Positions 1,360 to 58,448 of a stretch of DNA of 64,000 nt are shown here, one piece after another. The position numbers and the translations under genes are program-made. The notes under the pieces were generated by a model that saw only the letters and a list, made by a program, of their open reading frames with translations, was not told the origin of the DNA and searched no databases. Origin of the DNA: Niameybacter massiliensis (lineage in GTDB: Bacteria; Bacillota; Clostridia; Lachnospirales; Cellulosilyticaceae); NCBI RefSeq assembly GCF_001282685.1, contig NZ_LN875035.1, forward strand, positions 3,042,411-3,106,410, in the 5' to 3' direction. Each line of letters begins with the position of its first letter. Position 1 is the stretch's first letter.

Positions 1360-4300
1360 TTATTGTACTAATTCCCATGAATCATCACTACCTGGCTCTG
1401 TATTAGTCCACCATTTTGCTCTGTATTGTACACCTTGGTAAGTTACAATATCTCCTGCAACATAAGCATTACCTGGTATGTATCCTTGATTATTTTCTTC
1501 ACCTTCATCACCTTCTAATCCCCAAGATGAATCGCTACCTGGTGTTGAATTAGTCCACCATTTTGCTACATATGTTTTACCATTGTATACAACACGGTCA
1601 CCTTCTACATATGTTTTACCTGGAATATAATCTTGGCTTCCATCTGGGTTAGTTTCTATCTTTGCTTCCCATACGTCTGACTGACCTGGTATATCCCCTT
1701 TTGTCCACCATTTTGCTGTATACTCTTTGCCGTTGTACATCACCTTATCACCAGCATTGTAAATTTCTTCTGGGTTATATGTATTATTAGGATCTGGTTT
1801 TTCTTTTACAACTACTGTTCTTGTTGCTGTTGCTTCTAATCCTTTTGAATCTGATACTGTATATACAAGTTTATATGTTCCTGCTACTTCTGTATCTACT
1901 GCTCCATTTACTTTAATAGCAGATGTTAAATCACCATCTTCTTTATCTGTTGCTGTTACACCTTCCATTGCATCAAATGTGTCACCTACTGTAAGGATTA
2001 CATCTTGTACACCATGGATAACTGGTTTTGTATTTGCTTGTGGTATTTCACCTGTACCAAAACCTTTAAAGATATTTGTAAATGCATATTGACTTGGAAC
2101 ACCTTGATTATTTTCAAGTTGTGCATCTCTGTTCATTGACCAGAATGATGTCATACCAATTCCCTTTTCAATTGCATGATCAACCACTAGCTGTGCCCAT
2201 TCCGTTGTAAAGATTGGGTGTGCTTGTCCTTCAAATCCAATTGAAGGTGTTGTTCCTAATTTTGCATAAGCTTCTTCATCTGTTAATGTTACACCTACAA
2301 AACGTTTATAGTAATCTTTTAATTGGTCTTTTGTACTATCTACTGCACGAAGTGAACCTGTACCATAATTTTCTCCTGGTAAAAGCATTGCCTCACCATA
2401 GCACATAGTCATTAAGTTAACTACACTTACTTCTACACCTTCTGCAAGATATGCTTCTAACACACCTAAACCTTCACTTGTTAAACCACTTGGAAGCACT
2501 GCTAATGTGAGTACAATTTCTACACCTGTAGCATCTTGTACTTTTTTGATTGCTTTAGCATTTATAATATTTTGTTGCTTATTCTGTGCAGAACCTTCAA
2601 TGTCTAAGTCAAGTCTTGTAAGTCCATACCCTGTTACAAGGTCCATATATGTATTTGTTAAAACATCTACGTCTTGTGTTGCTTGCCAGAATGCTGTACC
2701 TGCTAGACCACCTAGAGAAATAGTTACATCTCCACCCATTTGACGAAGTTCACGGATAGACTTTTTAATTCCTAAGTATTGATCATTATTTGGATTAGCT
2801 TCGCTAAGTGCATCTAACCCAGCCCATCCCCATACAAGTTTACCATCTTTAATTTGTCCAGCTACAGATTGAATAAACCCTAAATTAAAGTAGTTTACAC
2901 CTGTATCTTCTGCAAGTTTAACTAAATTTGGTGCTCCATTGTTTCCATATCCAGGTTTTGTAATCCAGCTCCCCATATCTACAAATGGTGCATTTACTTG
3001 TTTTGGCCATACAATACCTTCACCTACACCAAAATCACTTTCTGGAATCTCTGGCACTGTTACTTCTTCTACTACTACTTGTCTTGATGCTGCTGCTTCT
3101 AGACCTTCGCTGTCTGCTACTCTATAAGTTAATGTATATGTACCTACATTAGCAGTATCTACATCACCTTCAACTTGAATAAGATGTGTTAAATCACCGT
3201 CTTCTTTATCTGTTGCTGTTACACCTGCCATTATATCAAATGTGCTACCTACTTTAACTGTTACATCATTGATACCTTTTAATTCTGGCGCTTGGTTAGG
3301 TTTTTTCGCTGCAACAGTAATTGTTCTTTCTACTACCGTTTCTAACCCTTTACTATCTGCCACTTTATAAGTTAATGTATATGTACCTTCTATTTCTGTA
3401 TTTACGCTACCCTCAACAGTTAAAACATGTGTTAAATCACCATCTTCTTTATCACGTGCTGTTACACCCAGCATTGCGTCAAATGTATCACCTACTGTAA
3501 TGGTTTTATTCTCAGCTCCCTGGATAACTGGTGCTTGATTTACTTGTTCTGTAGATCCATAGATTGTTTGACGTTTGATTTCTTTACCTTGTTTATTTAA
3601 ACGTTGTGCAAGCTCAATACTTTCAATGCCGCTTACATCTTCTACTGGACCATTTGCTTTTAATCTAAAAGTATAGGTTCTACCAGCTTCAATTTGACGT
3701 GCATCATATACACTACTTAAATCTACAACTGTGTATTCACCTTCTTGTGTAACTGTACCAGCTTTATAATCTCCACTTGTTAATAGACCATTTGCATGTT
3801 TAATATAAAACTTTGGAAGGGTAATGGTTTCTGCCATTTTTTCTGTCGCACTAAGTACTGTATTGCTTTCTTCTAGTACTTCATTATTCTTGATAGTGAT
3901 TTCATAACCACCTGTATTTCCCCAAGACTCCATATAAGGTGTAAGTGTTACTGTAATATCTAAATCCGCATATACAATCTCATATTGTGGAAGTACTGCA
4001 TTGCCATAAAGTCCTTGTTTAGTAGCCTTTGTAAGTTCATCACGTTTGCTAGATCTAGTTGGTGCATCCATAGATGCCATCCATGCAATCATACCACCCA
4101 AATCATTTTCATTTACGTAGTTTGCTTTTTCTGTAATTGAACGTACATTATCATAAGTAAAGAATGCTCCCGTTTGTTCACTGTATAAGTATGGCACCTT
4201 CGCTTCATCGTCCCAGTATTCTTTAAGTCCTGGATAAGCTGTTTTAAGCTTGTCTAAGTTTCTATAAGCCCATACACCAGAACGGCGTCCACCATCTCCC

Positions 4301-5406
4301 ATTGTTATAGGTGAATCATTTGCTGCACCTCTTGACGGTGTAAAGTCAGCATCTTTTCCTACAATTGCCGCTTCACCAAAGAGACCTGGATTACTTGGAT
4401 CTGTTCCTCCAGAAACCTCTTCCCATCCACGTGTGTAGTATGCAGCTCCAACAACTAATTTTTCTGCTGGTGCACCTTCTCCAATCATATACTGTACTGC
4501 TTCATCAATCGTATACTTTCTATCTTTATATGGATCATTTGAATTTGGATAAAGGCCCGCTTGATGTCCACTAATCTCATCAAATGCACCACGCATATCA
4601 TATGTCATTAAATTACCAAAGTCGATAATCTCAAACATTCTTTGTACATCTACACCTGTAGCTAATTTATCTTGTGATGCTGGAAGTGCTACTGATAATT
4701 CATACTCTTTTCCAAGTTCTACTTCTTTTATATTAAGTGCCTCTCTAATATCTTCTAATAATAAGATATAGTTTTCTCTATCATCTGGTCTTGCGTTTGG
4801 TGTACCCTCATCATTTTTGTTATCTACAGTATCTGCTTCACGTACAAATGCTGGATACTCCCAGTCAATATCTACAAAGTCCATATTGGTATACTCTACG
4901 AACTTAACGATATTCTCTACAAATTTTGCTCTTTTAGCTGGGTTTGCTGCCACTTCTGAGAAATCTCCTGATTTTGACCATCCACCAATAGAAACTCCAA
5001 TTTTTAAGTTTGGATTTTGCGCACGTAACTCCACTAATGCTGGAAGAATACCCGCACTAATATCTCCCCAAGTTACCCCTGGTTGTCCTAATGGATTTCC
5101 TATTGCTGCATCTTTGTCTGTAAAGATTAAATTACCTTGGTTATCAAAATCTAGGAATGCAAAATTCAAATGTGTTAACTGATCTGCTGGAATATCTTGT
5201 GGATAGAAATTCCCTTGTCCTCCCCATACAGACCAATCTCCATAATACATAACATTTCTTTTTGTATTTGCTTGACTCTTATACTCAAAACTACTTGTTT
5301 CTAATGCTTGTAACTGTACTGGATTTGTGATTACCATACCCCCAAGAACCATTGCTAATGTAGAAACTAATGCTGCTCTACTCATGAATCTTTTAAATAA
5401 TTTCAT
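1360..5406 (-). CDS. Secreted modular chitinase: two GH18 domains, three Ig-like DUF5011 repeats, three CBM5/12
   Basis: 1348 residues with a Sec signal peptide (about 1-35). The first GH18 domain (about 50-475) has the full DxxDxDxE motif D176-D179-D181-E183 in DFVDIDWEYP. A beta-sandwich linker (about 480-620) follows, then two DUF5011-like repeats (about 625-780, each with DKEDGDLT). The second GH18 domain (about 795-1130) is of a different, chitinase-D-like subtype with LDLDIEG (E937), where the first Asp of the motif is replaced. A third DUF5011 repeat (about 1140-1210) precedes three chitin-binding modules, each with AKWWT. It is predicted to cut chitin outside the cell. The start is supported by AGGAGG just upstream. 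Two different GH18 domains on one chain suggest complementary cutting modes. Confidence 0.95.
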   Translation of the reverse strand: MKLFKRFMSRAALVSTLAMVLGGMVITNPVQLQALETSSFEYKSQANTKRNVMYYGDWSVWGGQGNFYPQDIPADQLTHLNFAFLDFDNQGNLIFTDKDAAIGNPLGQPGVTWGDISAGILPALVELRAQNPNLKIGVSIGGWSKSGDFSEVAANPAKRAKFVENIVKFVEYTNMDFVDIDWEYPAFVREADTVDNKNDEGTPNARPDDRENYILLLEDIREALNIKEVELGKEYELSVALPASQDKLATGVDVQRMFEIIDFGNLMTYDMRGAFDEISGHQAGLYPNSNDPYKDRKYTIDEAVQYMIGEGAPAEKLVVGAAYYTRGWEEVSGGTDPSNPGLFGEAAIVGKDADFTPSRGAANDSPITMGDGGRRSGVWAYRNLDKLKTAYPGLKEYWDDEAKVPYLYSEQTGAFFTYDNVRSITEKANYVNENDLGGMIAWMASMDAPTRSSKRDELTKATKQGLYGNAVLPQYEIVYADLDITVTLTPYMESWGNTGGYEITIKNNEVLEESNTVLSATEKMAETITLPKFYIKHANGLLTSGDYKAGTVTQEGEYTVVDLSSVYDARQIEAGRTYTFRLKANGPVEDVSGIESIELAQRLNKQGKEIKRQTIYGSTEQVNQAPVIQGAENKTITVGDTFDAMLGVTARDKEDGDLTHVLTVEGSVNTEIEGTYTLTYKVADSKGLETVVERTITVAAKKPNQAPELKGINDVTVKVGSTFDIMAGVTATDKEDGDLTHLIQVEGDVDTANVGTYTLTYRVADSEGLEAAASRQVVVEEVTVPEIPESDFGVGEGIVWPKQVNAPFVDMGSWITKPGYGNNGAPNLVKLAEDTGVNYFNLGFIQSVAGQIKDGKLVWGWAGLDALSEANPNNDQYLGIKKSIRELRQMGGDVTISLGGLAGTAFWQATQDVDVLTNTYMDLVTGYGLTRLDLDIEGSAQNKQQNIINAKAIKKVQDATGVEIVLTLAVLPSGLTSEGLGVLEAYLAEGVEVSVVNLMTMCYGEAMLLPGENYGTGSLRAVDSTKDQLKDYYKRFVGVTLTDEEAYAKLGTTPSIGFEGQAHPIFTTEWAQLVVDHAIEKGIGMTSFWSMNRDAQLENNQGVPSQYAFTNIFKGFGTGEIPQANTKPVIHGVQDVILTVGDTFDAMEGVTATDKEDGDLTSAIKVNGAVDTEVAGTYKLVYTVSDSKGLEATATRTVVVKEKPDPNNTYNPEEIYNAGDKVMYNGKEYTAKWWTKGDIPGQSDVWEAKIETNPDGSQDYIPGKTYVEGDRVVYNGKTYVAKWWTNSTPGSDSSWGLEGDEGEENNQGYIPGNAYVAGDIVTYQGVQYRAKWWTNTEPGSDDSWELVQ

Positions 5407-5518
5407 TATTTATTTCCTCCTTATATTTTATCTCTATATTTTTTATTTATATTTTTATATTAGATACTCTTTTATGTCTTATATTCGTTTTAATCACGGT
5501 TTAAGTTATGATAATTTT

Positions 5519-5585
5519 ATTATAGGTACTCTATTTGTCCCTTGTCTATGTCACTAATGTCCCTCATTTATATCCTTTTTGTCCC
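5519..5585 (-). promoter_or_regulatory. Chitinase promoter with three phased TGTCCC repeats
   Basis: Reading toward the chitinase there is a -10 TATAAT (5519-5524) and only a poor -35 (5542-5547) at 17 bp. TGTCCC (GGGACA on the coding side) occurs at 5536-5541, 5558-5563 and 5580-5585, exactly 22 bp apart, so on the same face of the helix. This is the layout of a site for a cooperatively binding activator. Confidence 0.55.
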
Positions 5586-5617
5586 GACTTCAAAGGACAT
5601 CCTTTTAATGAACACAT

Positions 5618-5677
5618 AAAAAAGCTAGTTTAAGCATCTGTCTGCGTATAACAGATTGCCTAAACTAGCTTTTATTA
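5618..5677 (-). terminator. Terminator of pflB
   Basis: A long inverted repeat, AAAGCTAGTTTA... against ...TAAACTAGCTTT, with a loop around 5641-5650. It lies directly after the pflB stop and runs into T residues on the minus strand. Confidence 0.85.
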
Positions 5678-5690
5678 CTTTAATATTCTA

Positions 5691-7913
5691 TTACATTCTT
5701 TCGTGGAATGTTCTACTGATAACGTCTAATTGTTGTTCTCTTGTTAATTTGATGAAGTTAACTGCATAACCTGATACACGAATTGTTAATTGTGGGTATT
5801 TTTCTGGATGATCCATAGCATCTAATAAAAGATCTTTATGAAGAACGTTTACGTTGATGTGTTGTCCTGTTTGGCCAAAGTAACCATCTAAAATACCTAC
5901 CATGTTGTGTACACGTTCTTCTGGTGTTTTCCCTAATGTTTGTGGTACTAATGAGAATGTGTATGAAATACCATCTTGTGCATGTTCGAATGGAATTTTT
6001 GCTACTGAACTACATGCTGCAAGTACACCTTTTGTTTCTCTACCATTCATTGGATTAGCCCCTGGTGAGAATGGTACACCTGCTTTACGTCCATCTGGTG
6101 TAGCCCCTGTTTTCTTACCATATACAACGTTTGATGTAATAGTAAGAACAGATTGTGTGTATGTTGAATTTCTGTATGGTGTATGTCTTCTGATTTTTTC
6201 CATGAAATCTTTTGTAAGCATTACAGCAATGTCATCTACACGATCATCATTGTTACCGTATGCTGGGTATTCCCCTTCGATTTCAAAGTCAATTGCAATA
6301 CCTTGTTCATTTCTGATTGGTCTAACTTTTGTATGTTTAATAGCTGATAATGAGTCAGCTGCTACTGCAAGACCTGCTATACCACATGCCATAGTACGGA
6401 ATACTTCTGTATCATGAAGTGCCATTTCAATTCTTTCATAGCAGTATTTATCATGCATGTAGTGAATGATATTAAGTGCATCTGTGTAAGTTTTTGCAAG
6501 CCAATCTGTAGCAATTTCGAAGTTTTTCATAACTTTATCGTAATCTAAAACTTCATCTGTCATAGGTTCGATACCTGGAATAACAGCAACACCTGCTTTT
6601 TCATCTACCCCACCGTTAATTGCATAAAGTACAGCTTTTGCAAGGTTTGCACGTGCACCGAAGAATTGCATTTGTTTACCAATTCTCATTGGAGATACAC
6701 AACAAGCAATACCGTAGTCATCACCAAATTGTGGTCTCATTAAATCATCACTTTCATATTGGATAGCTGAAGTATCAATAGATACTTTTGCACAGAAATC
6801 TTTGTATCCTTGAGGGAATTTTTCACTCCAAAGTACAGTTAAGTTTGGTTCTGGAGATGGTCCAATATTGTAAAGTGTGTGTAAGTAACGGAAGCTATTT
6901 TTAGTTACAAGTGAAGCACTTCCATCTTCTAAGATACCACCAAGTGATTCTGTAACCCATGTTGGATCACCTGAGAATAAATCATTGTATTCTGGTGTTC
7001 TAAGGAATCTGATGATACGAAGTTTCATAATGAATTGGTCAATAATTTCTTGTGCTTCTTTTTCTGTAATAATACCTTCTTCAATATCTCTTTGGGCATA
7101 AATATCAAGGAATGTACTTGTTCTACCAATTGACATTGCTGCACCATTTTGCTCTTTTGTTGCTGCAAGGTATGCAAGATATAACCATTGTGTTGCTTCT
7201 TGGAAGTTATTAGCTGGTCTTGATAAATCAAATCCGTACATTTCACCTAGTTGTTTAAGTTCTTTAAAAGCTTTTACTTGTTCTGCAATCTCTTCGCAAT
7301 CTCTTATTGTCTCAGCTGTAAAGATTGTAGATTTAGCTTCTTTATCTTTAAGTTTTTCTTCGATTAATCTGTCTACCCCATATAGTGCTACTCTTCTGTA
7401 GTCACCAATGATACGTCCACGTCCGTATGCATCTGGAAGACCTGTTACGATACCTACTTTTCTAGCTTTGCGGATATCTGCATTGTATACATCAAATACA
7501 CCTTCATTATGTGTTTTTCTGTATTTTGTGAAGATCTCTTTCATTTCAGGTTCAATTTCATAGTCATATGAATTTAAAGCAGTCTCAACAGTTCTAATAC
7601 CACCAAATGGTTGTACTGAACGAACAAGTGGCTCTTCTGTTTGTAAACCTACTACTTTTTCTAAATCTTTATTGATGTAGCCTGCATTGTGTGAAATGAT
7701 TGTTGAAATTGTTTTTGTATCTACAAAACAACCTCTTTCTCTTTCTTTCACCATAAGCTCACTAAGTTGTTCCCAAAGTTTTGTTGTATTTTCTGTAGGG
7801 CCTTCTAAGAAACTTGCATCCCCTGTGTACTCTGTATAGTTGTTAACGATGAAATCTCTTACATCTACTGATTCATTCCATTTACCTGTTTTAAAGTTTC
7901 TCCATTGATTCAT
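5691..7913 (-). CDS. pflB: Formate C-acetyltransferase (pyruvate formate-lyase)
   Basis: Converts pyruvate and CoA to acetyl-CoA and formate by a glycyl radical mechanism in the cytoplasm. The chosen start gives 740 residues, the normal family length. It begins [12 protein letters not shown] and has AGGAG just upstream; an in-frame ATG 54 bp further out crosses the promoter/operator region and is rejected. The catalytic cysteine pair is C404-C405 (IACCVSPMR). The radical glycine is in RVSGYA (G715), 26 residues from the end. The pfl-activating enzyme gene usually found next to it is absent here, so activation must come from elsewhere in the genome. Confidence 0.97.
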
Positions 7914-50914: not shown

Positions 50915-51128
50915 ATTTATCTCCCCTTTCTTAATCTACAATCAGTTTAAGACTCCCCTCATCTAATATATATATACAGTTTTTAAGTTTTGTCTATTTC
51001 TTATACATTCCTATGAATTTGTCTAATTACCTTTTCAAATTTCTGCTCTATACTAGCCCTATAAATGAGACATCGTTTCAAAATATCACATTATATATCA
51101 CAACAATAACATGAATTGAGGTATGGGT

Positions 51129-52898
51129 ATGAACAGAAAACAACAGTTAAATAAATATCTAAAAAAACACACTAAAAAACAACCTAAAAATTATACTGGT
51201 GCTCTTTTAGCATTAGGTGCAATCACTACTGCTACAGCTACTGCTGTTGTATTATCAAAGAAAAAAAACTCCTCTAAATCTAAACACGTTTCATTACCAC
51301 AGTACATTGACCATAATGAACAACAAGTTTATTTTGTAGGTGGTGGCTTAGCTTCACTCGCAGGTGCTGCTTATCTTATTCGTGACTGTCACTTCCAAGG
51401 TTCTAATATACATATCTTAGAAGGTATGAAAATACTAGGTGGAAGTAATGATGGTGCCGGTAATGTTACTAATGGCTTCGTATGCCGTGGTGGTCGTATG
51501 CTTAACGAAGAAACATATGAAAACTTCTGGGAGCTTTTTGCTTCTATTCCTTCTTTAGATATGCCTAACATGAGTGTTACAGAAGAGATTCTTAACTTTG
51601 ATCATCTTCATCCAACCCATGCTCAAGCACGTCTTATTGATAAAGATGGGGTTATTCAAGATGTAACAAGTATGGGCTTTAATACTCAAGACCGTGCACT
51701 TCTCGGAAAACTTATGATTACACCTGAAGAAAAATTAGATGATATGACTATTGAAGAATGGTTTACTAGTAGCCCACACTTTTTCACTACTAACTTCTGG
51801 TATATGTGGCAAACTACTTTCGCTTTCCAAAAATGGTCTAGCTTATTTGAATTCAAACGTTATATGGAACGTATGATTTTCGAATTCTCACGTATCGAAA
51901 CACTAGAAGGGGTTACACGTACACCTTATAACCAATATGACTCTGTTATTTTACCATTACGTACTTACTTAGAAGGTTACGGTGTTAACTTCCGCACAGA
52001 TGCAACTGTAACAGATATTGACTTTAAAGATGGCCATGGTATCACTGCATCTGCTATCCATGTTCAAAACGCTGAAGGTGAAGAAGACGTTATTACTTTA
52101 AATGCACAAGACCTTTGTATTATGACTAATGGATGTATGACAGATAGTGCTACTCTTGGTGACCTTCATACACCTGCTATTTATGACCCAAGTCATCCAA
52201 TTTCTGGTGAATTATGGGCAAAAGTAGCAGCTAAAAAAGAAGGCTTAGGCAATCCTGAACCATTCTTTGGCTATCCAGATGAAACAAATTGGGAAAGCTT
52301 CACTGTAACTTGTAAAGGCAACAAGCTTCTCAAAAAAATAGAACAATTCTCTGGAAATATTCCTGGTAGTGGCGCACTTATGACATTCAAAGAATCTAAC
52401 TGGCTTATGAGTATCGTTGTAGCTGCACAACCACACTTCAAAAATCAACCTGCTGACACTACTATTTTCTGGGGCTATGGACTTTTCACTGACAAAGTAG
52501 GTAATTATGTAAAAAAACCAATGCGTGACTGTACAGGTGAAGAACTTCTTACCGAACTTATCCATCATTTCCACTGGGAAGATGAATTAGATGAACTTAT
52601 GGAAGACGTTGTTAATGTTATTCCATGTATGATGCCTTACATCGACTCTCAATTCCAACCTCGTAAAATGTCAGATCGTCCAAAAGTTGTACCTGAAGGC
52701 TCTACTAACTTTGCAATGATTAGCCAATTCGTTGAAATTCCTGAAGATATGGTATTTACAGAAGAATACTCTGTACGTGCTGCAAGAATGGCAATCTATA
52801 AATTAATGGGCGTAAAAAACAAACAAATTTGTCCTGTTACACCATTTAAAAAAGATAAAAAAGTCCTTCTTAAAGCGTTAAAAACTTCTTATAGATAA
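51129..52898 (+). CDS. ohyA: Oleate hydratase (fatty acid double-bond hydratase, MCRA family)
   Basis: 589 residues from ATG 51129 (MNRKQQLNKYL), which has GAGG 7 nt upstream; an ATG 6 bp earlier is too close to that site. The FAD motif is VYFVGGGLASLAGAAYLIRD, with LEGMKILGGSNDGAG and CRGGRMLNEETYENFW following. It adds water to cis-9 double bonds, giving 10-hydroxystearate from oleate, and protects against antibacterial fatty acids. Unusual is a basic N-terminal extension with a membrane-like segment (about 25-44, ALLALGAITTATATAVVL) before the enzyme. It may tether the enzyme to the membrane. Confidence 0.95.
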   Translation: MNRKQQLNKYLKKHTKKQPKNYTGALLALGAITTATATAVVLSKKKNSSKSKHVSLPQYIDHNEQQVYFVGGGLASLAGAAYLIRDCHFQGSNIHILEGMKILGGSNDGAGNVTNGFVCRGGRMLNEETYENFWELFASIPSLDMPNMSVTEEILNFDHLHPTHAQARLIDKDGVIQDVTSMGFNTQDRALLGKLMITPEEKLDDMTIEEWFTSSPHFFTTNFWYMWQTTFAFQKWSSLFEFKRYMERMIFEFSRIETLEGVTRTPYNQYDSVILPLRTYLEGYGVNFRTDATVTDIDFKDGHGITASAIHVQNAEGEEDVITLNAQDLCIMTNGCMTDSATLGDLHTPAIYDPSHPISGELWAKVAAKKEGLGNPEPFFGYPDETNWESFTVTCKGNKLLKKIEQFSGNIPGSGALMTFKESNWLMSIVVAAQPHFKNQPADTTIFWGYGLFTDKVGNYVKKPMRDCTGEELLTELIHHFHWEDELDELMEDVVNVIPCMMPYIDSQFQPRKMSDRPKVVPEGSTNFAMISQFVEIPEDMVFTEEYSVRAARMAIYKLMGVKNKQICPVTPFKKDKKVLLKALKTSYR

Positions 52899-52967: not shown

Positions 52968-54647
52968 CTACTTATATTTCCAAGTCTTTTCATCCTTAAG
53001 ATAATTATCTTGTGCAATAATTTCTTCATTTTTTGCAACTACATAATCTGTCATACCATGATTAACAGAATTGATATTCAGGATATCTATAGCTTCTTGA
53101 GCTGTATAGATAAGAAGTGATTTTGCTTCATTATTAGGATGTGGTAGTGTACTTATAAGACGTAAATTATTTCCACTATATATTTGATCTGCAACAATTT
53201 TATCCTTTGTTATTTTAAATGGAAGCTTTGTCTCATATGCTTTTAACCATAAGTTTCCCTCTACAGTCCCATAAGCAATGATATTCTTATCACTTAAATC
53301 CATTTGTAATGCTTCCTTATCTATTATAGCTGTTGCCTGCATACCAAGTTTATGGGTTAATAGATTCACTATTGCCATACAATACTCTGTAATTTTCTCT
53401 TGTACTAAAGTATTTTCTTGACTAGGCATAATAACAACTGTTTGACCGTCTATTTGTAAGGCTGCATTAATAGGCCCTTCAAATGGCATTGTATAAAAAC
53501 TTGAATCTAACTCCTGAAGATTTAACTCATTAAGTAATTTAACAATCTCAGGATAAAAGGCATTAAAATCTTTATATTCTTTTCTATTTTGTTCATAACT
53601 TGCTATTTTGTCAGATAATAATTCTATATAGAAAAATCCTTGTCTTTTTTCATCTTTTATTGCTTTTTCATAAGCTTCTTGGCCACTTTCATATAAAGTA
53701 CGTCTTGCTGTAATCGTGCGGATCAGATGCTCATTTAACGCTGTTTCCCAGTTTGAATACGCTAGTCTTTCCATTTTAACTGCAATAGGTGCAAAAAGTG
53801 CATCTGACTGAGTAAATTGATTTTGAAATACCTCTGTCAAAGGATTAATAAAAGAATGACTAAATTCATGCCATACAAGGTAATCAAAACTTTGTTTGTC
53901 ACCAAATACTGGAATATCTTCTACTACATCTACAGGCCCTAGAATACTATAAATATCATCTTTCCCTTCTGCATCAGTTAATCTTGGTCCAAATCCCCCA
54001 CCTCTATGTAAAGGTGCTAATATAATATTATAGCTATTATTGTGTATATTGTAGTACTCTTCTAACTCCGTAATATAACTTTCTTTTTCAAGTACTTGAC
54101 TTACTTGTTTAATCATCTTCTTATAAAATGATTCATGCTCTAAATAAAACTTTTGAAAATTTGTATCTGCTGCAAACTGCTTAAGCATACTTGCAAAACT
54201 TTTAAGTTGTTCCATACTTCCTGCTCTTAAGACTAGCTTTTCATCTAATTCTTTATTCTCGTCTAGTTCAAATGCATTTGTTAAATATAACATCATCGTT
54301 GGTGGTGCATCATAGCTAAATCCCTTCATACTCATCTTACTAAATAAAGTTACAGCTGGATGTGATGCAAATGTTGAAAACTGATCTAAAACGTCTTGCT
54401 TATAAGTGAAATCAAGGTCTGTCATTAATCCAAAATTTTGATTATATGTACTAAGTATTTGAACCACTGAAAGTAACTCTATACGTGGGTCAATAGATAC
54501 ATTGCTCCCGTTTACTGTTGCTTGTACCGGCTGTAACAGATCCATCTGCTCTTTTGACTTTGCACTCAAACTCCCACTACTTAAAAATACTGTACATAGC
54601 ACAATGAAGCACAAGTAAGCTACATTTTTTCTTTCTAACCTATTCAT
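52968..54647 (-). CDS. Exported DUF4932 putative metallopeptidase
   Basis: 559 residues. A Sec-type signal peptide (about 1-29, SSGSLSA) is followed by a DUF4932-like domain with HEFSH near residue 256, an HExxH zinc-protease motif. Downstream acidic/helical segments (ALNEHLIRTITARR) could give the third zinc ligand. The C-terminal third (about 390-559) is a separate mixed domain (GTVEGNLWLKAYETKLPF). It may cleave proteins outside the cell or in the envelope. Activity is inferred from the motif only. It stands alone between terminators. Confidence 0.8.
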   Translation of the reverse strand: MNRLERKNVAYLCFIVLCTVFLSSGSLSAKSKEQMDLLQPVQATVNGSNVSIDPRIELLSVVQILSTYNQNFGLMTDLDFTYKQDVLDQFSTFASHPAVTLFSKMSMKGFSYDAPPTMMLYLTNAFELDENKELDEKLVLRAGSMEQLKSFASMLKQFAADTNFQKFYLEHESFYKKMIKQVSQVLEKESYITELEEYYNIHNNSYNIILAPLHRGGGFGPRLTDAEGKDDIYSILGPVDVVEDIPVFGDKQSFDYLVWHEFSHSFINPLTEVFQNQFTQSDALFAPIAVKMERLAYSNWETALNEHLIRTITARRTLYESGQEAYEKAIKDEKRQGFFYIELLSDKIASYEQNRKEYKDFNAFYPEIVKLLNELNLQELDSSFYTMPFEGPINAALQIDGQTVVIMPSQENTLVQEKITEYCMAIVNLLTHKLGMQATAIIDKEALQMDLSDKNIIAYGTVEGNLWLKAYETKLPFKITKDKIVADQIYSGNNLRLISTLPHPNNEAKSLLIYTAQEAIDILNINSVNHGMTDYVVAKNEEIIAQDNYLKDEKTWKYK

Positions 54648-54836: not shown

Positions 54837-55754
54837 TTAAATGACTTGTTTTAAAATATTCTTTATGACTTCTTCATCCATATATTGACCTATAATTTTT
54901 TGTTTTATGATCTCTATAGGTAATGTTTCTAATAGATCAGAATAAACCTGTACTTCGTCAATACATCCGTCTTTAACTTGTAAAACTACTTGTACTAATC
55001 CTTTTGATGTACGTTCTTCTACTAAAACATCAAATTTTGGTGTTTCACCATAAATCCATTTCTCATCTTGATAACTTTCAAATTTCTTTGGTTTATAACT
55101 GGCCCTATTTATTGCTTTAACACTATCTAATTCTCCATAGACATTTTCAAAAGCATTTATAAGATATTCTTTTAAATTTTCTAATGTTATGTGTGGATTA
55201 AGCTCTTTTAAGTTAATCACTCTGCTTCTAACAGACTGAATCCCTTTAGACTCCATCTTCAGTTTAGAAGGTGTTAATACTTTCTGTAAGTACTTGAAGT
55301 CTACATCAAACATCAATGTTCCATGATGAAAATAATATTCATCGTCTTCATAAAATGCATGACCTGAAAACTTTCTTCCATCTGCTAGTAAATCATTACG
55401 CCCTGAATAGCTAATCTCTACTTCAAAAAAGCTAATAGCTTGTTTTAATACCTCTAACTGTTTTTCTAAATTACTATTTTTCTTTTTCGTTATGAATGTA
55501 AAATTAAGATTCCCAATATCATGGAATACTGCTCCACCACCAGAGATACGTCTAGCAAGGTATATATTTTCTCCTCTTAAATAATCTAAGTTACACTCTA
55601 ACCAAGGATTTTGATTTCTTCCAATAACAACTGTCTTTTCATTTTGCCAGAGATATAAAATGATATTTTCATCATCCACTGAATAGAGTAATTCTTCTTC
55701 TAGTGCTAGGTTATAGTAAGGATTAAATTCTTCGGAAATAATGACTTTATTCAT
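54837..55754 (-). CDS. lplA: Lipoate-protein ligase
   Basis: 305 residues. Ligase core motifs RRISGGGAVFHD (lipoate/ATP loop) and GRKFSGHAFY (with the active lysine region) are followed by a C-terminal accessory domain (about 240-305), so it is the complete LplA form. It attaches lipoate to a lysine of lipoyl domains. Its start lies 8 bp inside the upstream E3 gene, so the two are coupled. The E3 carries its own lipoyl domain and is the obvious substrate. Confidence 0.95.
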   Translation of the reverse strand: MNKVIISEEFNPYYNLALEEELLYSVDDENIILYLWQNEKTVVIGRNQNPWLECNLDYLRGENIYLARRISGGGAVFHDIGNLNFTFITKKKNSNLEKQLEVLKQAISFFEVEISYSGRNDLLADGRKFSGHAFYEDDEYYFHHGTLMFDVDFKYLQKVLTPSKLKMESKGIQSVRSRVINLKELNPHITLENLKEYLINAFENVYGELDSVKAINRASYKPKKFESYQDEKWIYGETPKFDVLVEERTSKGLVQVVLQVKDGCIDEVQVYSDLLETLPIEIIKQKIIGQYMDEEVIKNILKQVI

Positions 55755-57462
55755 GGAAATGTAATGCTCCTATTCCCAGTCCAAGTGTACATTCATGAAT
55801 CACTTCACCTGTTGTTGGATGGGCAAAAATAGTTTCTATAATTTGCTCTTCCTCTAACCCATTTTGAATAATCAATGTTAGGCTACTGATTAAAGTAGAT
55901 GCATCCACACCTATTATAGAAGCACCTATTACTTTATTGGTTTGTACATCCTTAATCATCTTAATAAAGCCTTTTTCTTCTCCCATTGTTAATGCTTTTC
56001 CATTAGCAGCAAATGGGAACTTACTTACTTTAATATCTATTCCTTTTTCTTTTGCTTGTGCCTCACTTAATCCTACACTTGCTATTTCTGGTGAGGTAAA
56101 AATCACATTAGGAACGTTCTGACTAGAAAATGCTTTCTTCTCTCCAAGTATCTGATCAACGACGATCATCCCTTGATGTGAAGCCGCATGAGCCAATTGA
56201 ATTCTATTATTTACATCACCAATGGCATAGATATGTTCTATGTTTGTTTGAAGGTATTCATCCGTTTTAATACCTCTACCATTTTCTAGAAGTTTTACAC
56301 CTGCTTTTTCTAAGTCTAAACCTTCTATATTAGGCTCTCTACCTATTGCAACAAGTACTTTCTCGGATACAATATATTTTTCTGCACCATCCTTTTCAAA
56401 TACAACGATTGCTTCTTTTCCTTCTGTCATTTCAACTTTTTTAACTTTTGAGTGGGTATATACATCAATGCCTTTTTCCTTAGCACTTCTAGTTATTTCT
56501 TCAGATATTTCTTCCTCTACCATTGTTAAAACTCTTGGCATATATTCAACAACTTTTACTTTCACACCAAACTGTGCATAGATAAATGCAAATTCCATAC
56601 CTATAACACCACCACCAATAATCGTCATTGATTTTGGCAGCTCTTTTAGCTCTAATGCGGTTGTACTATTCAAGATACATGGTAAATCCATTCCTGGAAT
56701 ATTTATCTTTGAAATTTTTGAACCTGTAGCAATAATAATATCTTTAGATTGAATAGTAATTTCATCTCTTCCAGATTGGACAAAAACTGTTTTTTGATCT
56801 ATAAACTTACCTGTTCCTCTTATATGCTTAATATTGTTTGCTTGAAGTAAATAATCGATTCCACCTACTAGCGTTTCTTTAATTTGATCTTTACGCTTAA
56901 TTACTTTCTCCATATTAACCCTTGCATTCTCACAGCTAAGGCCAAAATCTTCTGCATGTGTTAAGTGATGATATACTTCTGCTGATTTCACAAGTGATTT
57001 GGTTGGAATACATCCCACATTGAGGCAGGTTCCCCCTAGATTCTCTTTTTCAATCAGTATAACTTTTAAACCTTTTTTAGCAGCATAAATTGCTGCTACA
57101 TAACCACCTGGTCCACCACCAATAATAGTTACATCAGCTTCAATATTTTCTTTCTTTCCTTTCATCATACTGCCTAGATAATCAAAGCTTGTTTTTGGAG
57201 CTGCTTTTTCTACAGTTTCTTTTTCTATAGCATCTCCTTCTAGTTTTATAAGTAGATCCCCAATGCTTACTTCTTGCCCCTCTTGAACACATATATCTAT
57301 TACTTTGCCACTTGATAAACTCTTTACTGGTGTATTACCTTTCTTACTTTCTATCTGCATTAATATTTGGCCTTCTTCTACAACTTTTCCTTTTTCTATA
57401 CTAAGTTTACCTACTATTCCACTTTTGCTGTGACCGTTAAGCTTTTCAAGTTTTATGTCCAT
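55747..57462 (-). CDS. lpdA: Dihydrolipoamide dehydrogenase with N-terminal lipoyl domain
   Basis: 571 residues. The lipoyl domain (about 1-76) has ESKKG, with K41 in the position of the lipoylated lysine. A linker leads to a complete E3: FAD motif IGGGPGGYVAAIYA, redox pair C146/C151 (GGTCLNVGCIPTK), NAD motif GGGVIGMEFA and the active HPTTGEVIHE. It oxidises dihydrolipoyl groups with NAD, or runs in reverse to reduce lipoyl groups. No E1/E2 or glycine-cleavage genes are nearby; the neighbours are an AhpD-like protein and a lipoate ligase. Strong AGGAGG site. Confidence 0.95.
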   Translation of the reverse strand: MDIKLEKLNGHSKSGIVGKLSIEKGKVVEEGQILMQIESKKGNTPVKSLSSGKVIDICVQEGQEVSIGDLLIKLEGDAIEKETVEKAAPKTSFDYLGSMMKGKKENIEADVTIIGGGPGGYVAAIYAAKKGLKVILIEKENLGGTCLNVGCIPTKSLVKSAEVYHHLTHAEDFGLSCENARVNMEKVIKRKDQIKETLVGGIDYLLQANNIKHIRGTGKFIDQKTVFVQSGRDEITIQSKDIIIATGSKISKINIPGMDLPCILNSTTALELKELPKSMTIIGGGVIGMEFAFIYAQFGVKVKVVEYMPRVLTMVEEEISEEITRSAKEKGIDVYTHSKVKKVEMTEGKEAIVVFEKDGAEKYIVSEKVLVAIGREPNIEGLDLEKAGVKLLENGRGIKTDEYLQTNIEHIYAIGDVNNRIQLAHAASHQGMIVVDQILGEKKAFSSQNVPNVIFTSPEIASVGLSEAQAKEKGIDIKVSKFPFAANGKALTMGEEKGFIKMIKDVQTNKVIGASIIGVDASTLISSLTLIIQNGLEEEQIIETIFAHPTTGEVIHECTLGLGIGALHFHE

Positions 57463-57475
57463 TGTAATCCTCCTA

Positions 57476-57524
57476 TATTAAAAGGCTAATGCTCTATTGA
57501 ATACTCAATAAATACCTTAGCCTT
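57476..57524 (-). terminator. Hairpin between the AhpD-like gene and lpdA
   Basis: AAGGCTAA (57482-57489) pairs with TTAGCCTT (57517-57524) with an inner TATTGA/TCAATA stem, and TTTTAATATA follows on the minus strand. It is probably a partial terminator, letting some transcripts continue into lpdA-lplA. Confidence 0.6.
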
Positions 57525-57534
57525 CATTCACTAT

Positions 57535-57888
57535 CTATTTAAAATCTTTTTCAAATTCATCTAATGAATCTTTTAATAAAGTTACGCTATATGCCATGCT
57601 TGGGCCACCACCGAAAGCTACAGCAACCATTGCTGCTTCCATAATCTCAGCTCTTGTTGCGCCTGCTTCTAAAGCTTTATATACATGGAATACAATACAA
57701 TATTCGCAGCGGTTATATGCTGCAATTGCAACACTGATTAACTCTTTTGTTTTTGTTTCTAAACTTCCTGGTGCATAAGTTGTACCTAATAAGTTCATGA
57801 AAGCACCTACATGCTCACTATTGGTTTGACCTAATTCTTCAAGGCCCCCCATAAAATCATTTAACATTTGTCTTGGATCTTTTTTCAT
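57535..57888 (-). CDS. AhpD-like carboxymuconolactone decarboxylase-family protein
   Basis: 117 residues. C61-x2-C64-x3-H68 (CEYCIVFH) in an all-helical AhpD-like fold is the disulfide/proton-relay site of AhpD-type proteins. AhpD links dihydrolipoamide to peroxide reduction in mycobacteria. Here it lies next to an E3 with its own lipoyl domain, so an analogous chain NADH-E3-lipoyl-AhpD is plausible. GAGGAGG sets the start. Its promoter region contains an array of dyads likely bound by the MarR encoded upstream. Confidence 0.9.
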   Translation of the reverse strand: MKKDPRQMLNDFMGGLEELGQTNSEHVGAFMNLLGTTYAPGSLETKTKELISVAIAAYNRCEYCIVFHVYKALEAGATRAEIMEAAMVAVAFGGGPSMAYSVTLLKDSLDEFEKDFK

Positions 57889-57942
57889 TACTTATACCCT
57901 CCTCATTTAAAAACATTACTGTATTAATATTTAACATATTAA

Positions 57943-58014
57943 TACTTAGCATGTTAAGTATTTGGTAATTAAAATGCTAACATATATTTTATGTAAAATC
58001 AATATGCTAGCATA
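57943..58014 (-). promoter_or_regulatory. MarR-type operator array before the AhpD-like gene
   Basis: Three related dyads: TACTTAGCATGTTAAGTA (57943-57960, 2 asymmetric base pairs), a half-type ATGCTAACAT (57974-57983) and the perfect TATGCTAGCATA (58003-58014). Shared half-site TTAGCAT/ATGCTAA. It lies between the marR and AhpD-like genes. Confidence 0.6.
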
Positions 58015-58025
58015 ATTTTTTACTA

Positions 58026-58448
58026 TTATTTAATATTATTAATCATTTTTTCCATTACTTGAATAAAAACTTCCAGTTCTTCTTTACCTACTGCATTTGT
58101 AATATCAGTTGAAAACTGCTCTCCTATAGGAATCAACTTTTCTCTTAGTTCATTACCTTTTTGTGTTAAAACTAAGGTACTTATACGCCTATCATTGGCA
58201 TCCTTTTCTCGTATAACAAGTTCATTCTTTTCCATTCTATCTATAAGTCTTGCTACAGATGGCTCAGTTGTACTAATCTTATCTGCCAACTCTCTTTGAG
58301 TTAATCCTTTTATTTCCCCTATATAATAAATCGCAATCCATTGAACTCTTGTAATATTATATACTTCTAACCTTTTTTCAAAGGCTTGTGCTAATGCCTT
58401 CGCACCTCTGCTTGTTATAATACCAATACAATCATCTAAATTAAACAT
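58026..58448 (-). CDS. MarR-family regulator with a single N-terminal cysteine
   Basis: 140 residues. A winged helix (about 30-100) includes LTQRELADKISTTEPSVARLIDRMEKN and the wing DANDRRIS. The only cysteine, C7, lies near the N-terminus, roughly where OhrR-type peroxide sensors carry their sensing cysteine (C15). It probably represses the AhpD-like/lpdA/lplA genes through the dyad array downstream of its own gene. Redox sensing is inference. GGGAG sets the start. Confidence 0.9.
   Translation of the reverse strand: MFNLDDCIGIITSRGAKALAQAFEKRLEVYNITRVQWIAIYYIGEIKGLTQRELADKISTTEPSVARLIDRMEKNELVIREKDANDRRISTLVLTQKGNELREKLIPIGEQFSTDITNAVGKEELEVFIQVMEKMINNIK

Follow-up and report, generated by a model that had tools for sequence, protein, structure and literature searches.

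The role that is taught for lipoic acid is that of a cofactor in central carbon metabolism. A different setting for the lipoyl group is Mycobacterium tuberculosis peroxide defence, where electron flow from NADH through Lpd and DlaT to AhpD and then AhpC has been established (PMC12028322). Here, we describe a four-gene cassette in a 64,000-nt stretch of the Niameybacter massiliensis genome (contig NZ_LN875035.1; the whole stretch is referred to as “the window”). The cassette encodes a MarR-family regulator, an AhpD-like protein, a dihydrolipoyl dehydrogenase (E3) that carries its own lipoyl domain (E3L), and the lipoate-protein ligase LplA. We consider it quite probable that these proteins form a MarR-controlled oxidant-defence relay, in which electrons would pass from NADH through FAD-containing E3 and a lipoylated Lys41 to AhpD, and AhpD would reduce the oxidant directly.

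The parallels with the mycobacterial Lpd/DlaT (SucB)/AhpD/AhpC peroxidase are the route from NADH through E3 and a lipoyl-lysine to the AhpD CxxC motif, and the Glu, two Cys, and His residues of AhpD. In mycobacteria, however, the E2 of a metabolic complex lends the lipoyl arm and electrons go on to AhpC, whereas the cassette has its arm joined to a dedicated E3 and a private ligase, the genome lacks E2, and the cluster lacks AhpC. Since an E2-supplied arm and a dedicated AhpC partner were both looked for and neither was found, the cassette is not the mycobacterial system proper; by analogy, it may be seen as a compact form of the Lpd/DlaT/AhpD logic. A second relevant system is Ohr/OsmC with its regulator OhrR. 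Electrons reach Ohr from lipoylated proteins (PMC5962072), and a review reports that OsmC of Corynebacterium glutamicum is regenerated by AhpD (PMC8945050). As is proposed for the cassette, a MarR protein with an N-terminal cysteine controls a lipoyl-dependent peroxidase that receives NADH electrons through E3. Unlike Ohr, the candidate peroxidase of the cassette has an AhpD fold; the genome has no Ohr/OsmC, and the MarR cysteine is two positions off that of OhrR.

Self-sufficient lipoyl systems have also been described. The SirTM-macrodomain-GcvH-L-LplA2 operon of Staphylococcus aureus and Streptococcus pyogenes pairs an operon-specific lipoyl carrier with its own LplA and is linked to oxidative stress (PMC4518038). 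The cassette shares with it the dedicated carrier and ligase, independent of glycine cleavage. The SirTM operon differs in having a GcvH-like carrier, with sirtuin, macrodomain, OYE, and LLM partners and neither E3 nor AhpD; no sirtuin or macrodomain genes were found among the ORFs neighbouring the cassette. In Hdr-like sulfur oxidation, LbpA and a lipoate ligase form a dedicated pair outside 2-oxoacid metabolism, in a paper that does not mention AhpD (PMC6067878). Lastly, the cassette AhpD shares its fold and CxxC motif with two small AhpD-like CMD proteins, Lpg0406 of Legionella and RclX of Pseudomonas. RclX is oxidant-induced and required by P. aeruginosa against HOCl and HOSCN; rclX is a single-gene operon under the RclR regulator, and no lipoyl, E3, or LplA partners are described in the passages covered (PMC7950407). 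The cassette thus combines mycobacterial-type logic with the self-sufficiency of the SirTM and sulfur-oxidation systems. No description of a MarR-AhpD-E3L-LplA operon was found in the open-licence papers covered, which is a weak negative, and the combination is new relative to that literature.

ORFs in the window were assigned to families using Pfam and NCBIfam models. The cluster had been proposed from the sequence in a first-pass annotation, and the family models agree: the four ORFs are intact and collinear on the minus strand (54837-58448). The AhpD-like protein (57535..57888; 117 aa; PF02627) scores 64.7 bits against the ahpD_dom model TIGR00778, for which the cut-off is 27.8, and is the only CMD protein in the genome. 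It has the motif C61-E-Y-C64 (codons 57697-57708), together with Glu49 and His68. To assess conservation, one genome per species was scanned with an alignment of AhpD relatives, giving 80 loci in which the identity of AhpD is 70% or higher; E49, C61, Y63, C64, and H68 are invariant in all 80 homologues. The Glu-x11-Cys-x2-Cys-x3-His spacing is that of M. tuberculosis AhpD. In an AlphaFold2 model (pLDDT 96), the best PDB match is Lpg0406 (5dik; Foldseek TM 0.85-0.88), with RclX (7y4r) among the other top matches. By these features the protein belongs to the AhpD-like CMD thiol peroxidases/reductases, and peroxidase activity is predicted.

E3L (55747..57462; 571 aa) consists of a Biotin_lipoyl domain (PF00364; residues 1-76), a flexible linker (approximately 77-99), and an FAD/NAD E3 with the motifs C146-x4-C151 and H548-P-T-x2-E553. 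Its score with TIGR01350 is 547.6 bits against a cut-off of 408.8. The FAD and NAD domains, the CxxxxC motif, and the C-terminal His-Glu pair identify it by sequence as a dihydrolipoyl dehydrogenase; C146, C151, H548, and E553 are invariant in 64/64 homologues. Lys41 (codon 57340..57342, within I-E-S-K-K41-G-N) is the predicted lipoylation site and is likewise invariant (64/64). E38 is kept in 63/64, while the positions adjoining K41 vary. The domain has an E-x-x-K context and no AMKM, in contrast to the biotin carriers of the same genome, which have AMKM or AMKL; judged by this motif, it is a lipoyl domain rather than a biotin carrier. In the AlphaFold2 model of E3L (mean pLDDT 89), the lipoyl domain is beta-rich, K41 sits in a predicted beta-turn between strands 33-39 and 42-47, residues 77-99 are disordered, and the E3 portion is well ordered. 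The modelled lipoyl domain and linker could plausibly act as a swinging arm. LplA (54837..55754; 305 aa) exceeds the cut-off of the equivalog model TIGR00545 (342.6 bits against 280).

Support for a self-contained relay comes from the rest of the genome (4.57 Mb; 98% complete), in which no E2 (PF00198), no GcvH (TIGR00527/PF01597), and no lipoyl synthase LipA above cut-off were found, and the cassette LplA is the only LplA/LipB-type ligase. The other Biotin_lipoyl matches are the three biotin carriers and membrane-fusion-type proteins, so E3L is the only recognisable lipoyl acceptor. The first-pass annotation had remarked that no E1, E2, or glycine-cleavage genes lie near the cluster; this is correct, and it extends to E2 and GcvH across the genome. 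The annotation had also named service to a 2-oxo acid dehydrogenase encoded elsewhere as one reading that would overturn its own. Because neither E2 nor GcvH was found in the genome, this is very improbable for E3L, as is service to glycine cleavage elsewhere in the genome. The same pattern emerged from 51 genomes, with the reservation that completeness was not established for those reached through loci: E2, GcvH, and LipA are all absent from 15/32 genomes with AhpD-E3L-LplA. By contrast, none of the 19 genomes with reduced forms (AhpD-E3L without LplA, or AhpD alone) lacks both E2 and GcvH; all 19 carry one or the other (Fisher p = 2.6e-4 for full versus reduced cassettes, uncorrected for kinship). 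This pattern would be expected if the cassette came with the means to handle lipoate by itself.

The gene neighbourhood is conserved, as the first-pass annotation required for its interpretation. E3L lies immediately downstream of AhpD in 63/80 loci (61 full-length, and two with an interrupted reading frame), a recurrence that argues against chance association. LplA is also close by in approximately 45 loci and 60 have a MarR; most loci retain all four genes. The cassette occurs with its gene order retained in many Clostridia, in Paenibacillus, and in two Fusobacteriota, and is common in anaerobes. No orthologue was found among 23 other genomes of the window’s own family, where the only hits have 28-34% identity, and in an E3L tree the neighbours of the window sequence form a clade drawn from Clostridium, Paenibacillus, and Filifactoraceae. 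Given the missing orthologues and the tree placement, transfer is the simplest reading, and the cassette was probably gained in this way (or lost by relatives). A search of a plasmid collection gave one match, to an unannotated 2.6 Mb Acetoanaerobium noterae record, and does not support plasmid spread.

In the proposed mechanism, LplA would load scavenged lipoate onto Lys41 of the E3-fused lipoyl domain. Electrons from NADH would pass to FAD and the Cys146-Cys151 disulfide, from which E3 would reduce the tethered lipoamide; the reduced lipoamide would then swing on the flexible linker and reduce the CxxC disulfide of AhpD. AhpD would in turn directly reduce an organic peroxide, peroxynitrite, or a hypohalous-type oxidant or, less likely, hand electrons to another thiol acceptor. 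Under stress, the MarR repressor would leave a palindrome upstream of ahpD, probably after sensing through Cys7. The self-contained lipoyl disulfide relay proposed in the first-pass annotation is supported, with its electron flow and final acceptor being the parts that we infer. We also lean toward the broader view that the cassette is a mobile, self-sufficient lipoyl-dependent oxidant reductase operon, comprising sensor, electron input, arm, ligase, and thiol enzyme, and that it provides the sole role of lipoic acid in some bacteria, which have neither a 2-oxoacid dehydrogenase nor glycine cleavage. In at least 15 genomes, the lipoate ligase appears to be retained for a single protein, namely the redox arm that is paired with AhpD. 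If this is true, lipoyl antioxidant chemistry has been separated from metabolism, and oxidant defence in these bacteria would depend on scavenged lipoate. It would also explain orphan CMD, MarR, and LplA annotations in many clostridia, and the four genes would make a compact system in which electron transfer between lipoyl groups and AhpD could be studied.

Several points weigh against the proposed relay. No published biochemistry on the cassette family was found. The cluster contains no gene for AhpC or another peroxidase (the first-pass annotation had observed the lack of a peroxiredoxin gene), so any final acceptor is putative. In approximately 15/80 loci AhpD has no adjacent lipoyl protein, although some of these are ended by a contig edge; in the seven such genomes tested, GcvH or E2 is encoded elsewhere. 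Lastly, in a PDB comparison, MarR residues 7-108 align to residues 13-114 of an OhrR chain, which places Cys7 two residues before OhrR Cys15, so OhrR-like sensing by MarR through Cys7 is only suggested. With respect to the acceptor, AhpD might be an adaptor that passes electrons from the lipoyl-E3 to an AhpC encoded elsewhere. Mycobacterial AhpD does reduce AhpC (PMC12028322), and the window’s genome has a single AhpC (TIGR03137). However, the neighbour of this AhpC is an AhpF homologue (TIGR03143; 834 bits), the reductase that would be expected to serve it, and six genomes in which E3L is the sole lipoyl protein have no 1-cysPrx_C peroxiredoxin at all, making an adaptor role unlikely. Ohr was rejected as an acceptor, given that no Ohr/OsmC gene (PF02566) is present in the genome. 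Together, the AhpF partner of AhpC, the absence of Ohr/OsmC, and the six genomes without 1-cysPrx_C make AhpD itself the most economical and likeliest terminal reductase, with an organic peroxide, peroxynitrite, an HOSCN-type oxidant, or a disulfide as candidate substrates. The AhpC-AhpF locus (L155; G000:C11:2678000-2688000), where Fur-like, FeoB-like, and rubrerythrin-like proteins were recognised nearby by eye, is a separate peroxide-defence locus of this genome.

Also unlikely, though deserving somewhat more weight than an adaptor role, is a lipoyl-dependent disulfide reductase serving general thiol homeostasis, in which the substrates of a thioredoxin-like AhpD would be protein and low-molecular-weight disulfides and not peroxides. 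The title of PDB entry 1knc refers to thioredoxin-like activity of AhpD, the cluster has no fixed peroxidase partner, and it is common in anaerobes. On the other hand, the invariant Glu49 and His68 belong to a peroxidase relay and are not obviously needed by a plain disulfide carrier; RclX, a close characterised relative, is an oxidant-defence protein; and in one homologous cluster (L039/L108) a superoxide dismutase gene lies between E3L and LplA. Two further explanations were considered. Lipoyl-domain E3 proteins are known in 2-oxoacid dehydrogenase, acetoin dehydrogenase, and glycine cleavage complexes, and GcvH or E2 is present in 17/32 cassette genomes, such that E3L could serve one of these complexes elsewhere with MarR and AhpD as chance neighbours. 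The lack of E2 and GcvH in the window’s genome and 14 others, and the co-localisation kept in 63/80 loci, make this very improbable. More improbable still is that the CMD protein is a metabolic decarboxylase or lactonase for aromatic or electrophile detoxification under an HpaR/SlyA-like MarR. This would fit the Pfam name CMD and the best model matches of MarR (HpaR and SlyA, all under cut-off). However, the PcaC 4-carboxymuconolactone decarboxylase model TIGR02425 gives only 25.1 bits against a cut-off of 155.7, leading to rejection of that role; the CxxC, Glu, and His residues never vary among the 80 homologues; and no pathway genes were recognised beside AhpD in the loci examined.

Regulation of the proposed relay is likely to involve the MarR protein (58026..58448; 140 aa; PF12802/PF01047). 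The first-pass annotation called it a one-cysteine MarR, and Cys7 (codon 58428-58430), near the N terminus, is indeed its only conserved cysteine, present in 59/59 homologues. A near-perfect 22-nt palindrome, AATACTTAACATGCTAAGTATT, lies upstream of ahpD at 57941..57962. Sites with at least 15 matches to the consensus AATACTTGCTATAGCAAGTATT occur upstream of ahpD in 66/81 loci, compared with approximately 3-4% of shuffled or random stretches. The palindrome tracks MarR: it is present in 55/57 loci where MarR is adjacent and in 9/21 where it is not (Fisher p = 4.7e-7). It is probably the MarR operator. When the window’s genome was scanned allowing up to three mismatches, the sole match was the cassette site, which makes MarR look dedicated to this operon. 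Matches in a consensus promoter scan were no more frequent than in shuffles, and were not used. In nine Clostridium loci (L067, L082, L084, L085, L089, L092, L099, L104, and L116), the promoter region contains a further palindrome, TACCAC-N6-GTGGTA, which precedes that of MarR on the upstream side (0/4000 shuffles). It is absent from the window, and is possibly the site of a second regulator.

Gene junctions within the cassette are also conserved. The end of the E3L reading frame and the beginning of that of LplA share 8 nt, and the two genes overlap in 42/43 homologous pairs, which suggests that the ligase and its substrate are translationally coupled. The 72-nt ahpD-E3L spacer (57463..57534, minus strand) contains a strong stem-loop, AAGGCUAA...UUAGCCUU, before the E3L ribosome-binding site (fold z -3.35), and hairpins with z < -2 relative to mononucleotide shuffles were found in 45/50 homologous spacers. 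The stem-loop is possibly a partial terminator or an mRNA-stabilising hairpin, and perhaps raises AhpD output above that of E3L.

Variant loci indicate that the association of AhpD with lipoyl carriers persists through changes in the form of the carrier. L132 lacks an E3 and has genes for a free lipoyl-domain protein of 80 aa and LplA after AhpD; L144 reads GcvH-E3-AhpD; and in L041/L125, AhpD follows lipB-lipA. A divergent cluster, L049 (G088; 4145-7327), keeps the AhpD-E3L-LplA trio at identities of approximately 41%, 40%, and 35%, respectively, and represents a second cassette subtype. It has no adjacent MarR, and the model that its AhpD fits most closely, though with a score under the cut-off, is TIGR04169 (arsenosugar-associated peroxidase-like). 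MarR-AhpD pairs without a lipoyl-E3 occur in six loci (L083, L102, L110, L138, L140, and L142). The four genomes tested among these (L083, L102, L138, and L140) all encode GcvH elsewhere, and AhpD in such pairs may borrow GcvH as its electron donor. In the genomes of L138 and L140 (G458 and G459), a 1-cysPrx_C match lies within an unusually long open frame of approximately 600 aa, possibly a fusion of a peroxiredoxin with a further domain.

Two other genes lie close to the cassette. The gene that comes immediately after LplA, in the same orientation, encodes a secreted-looking DUF4932 protein (window 52968-54647), and an oleate hydratase of the MCRA family (687 bits) is encoded on the plus strand (window 51123-52898).

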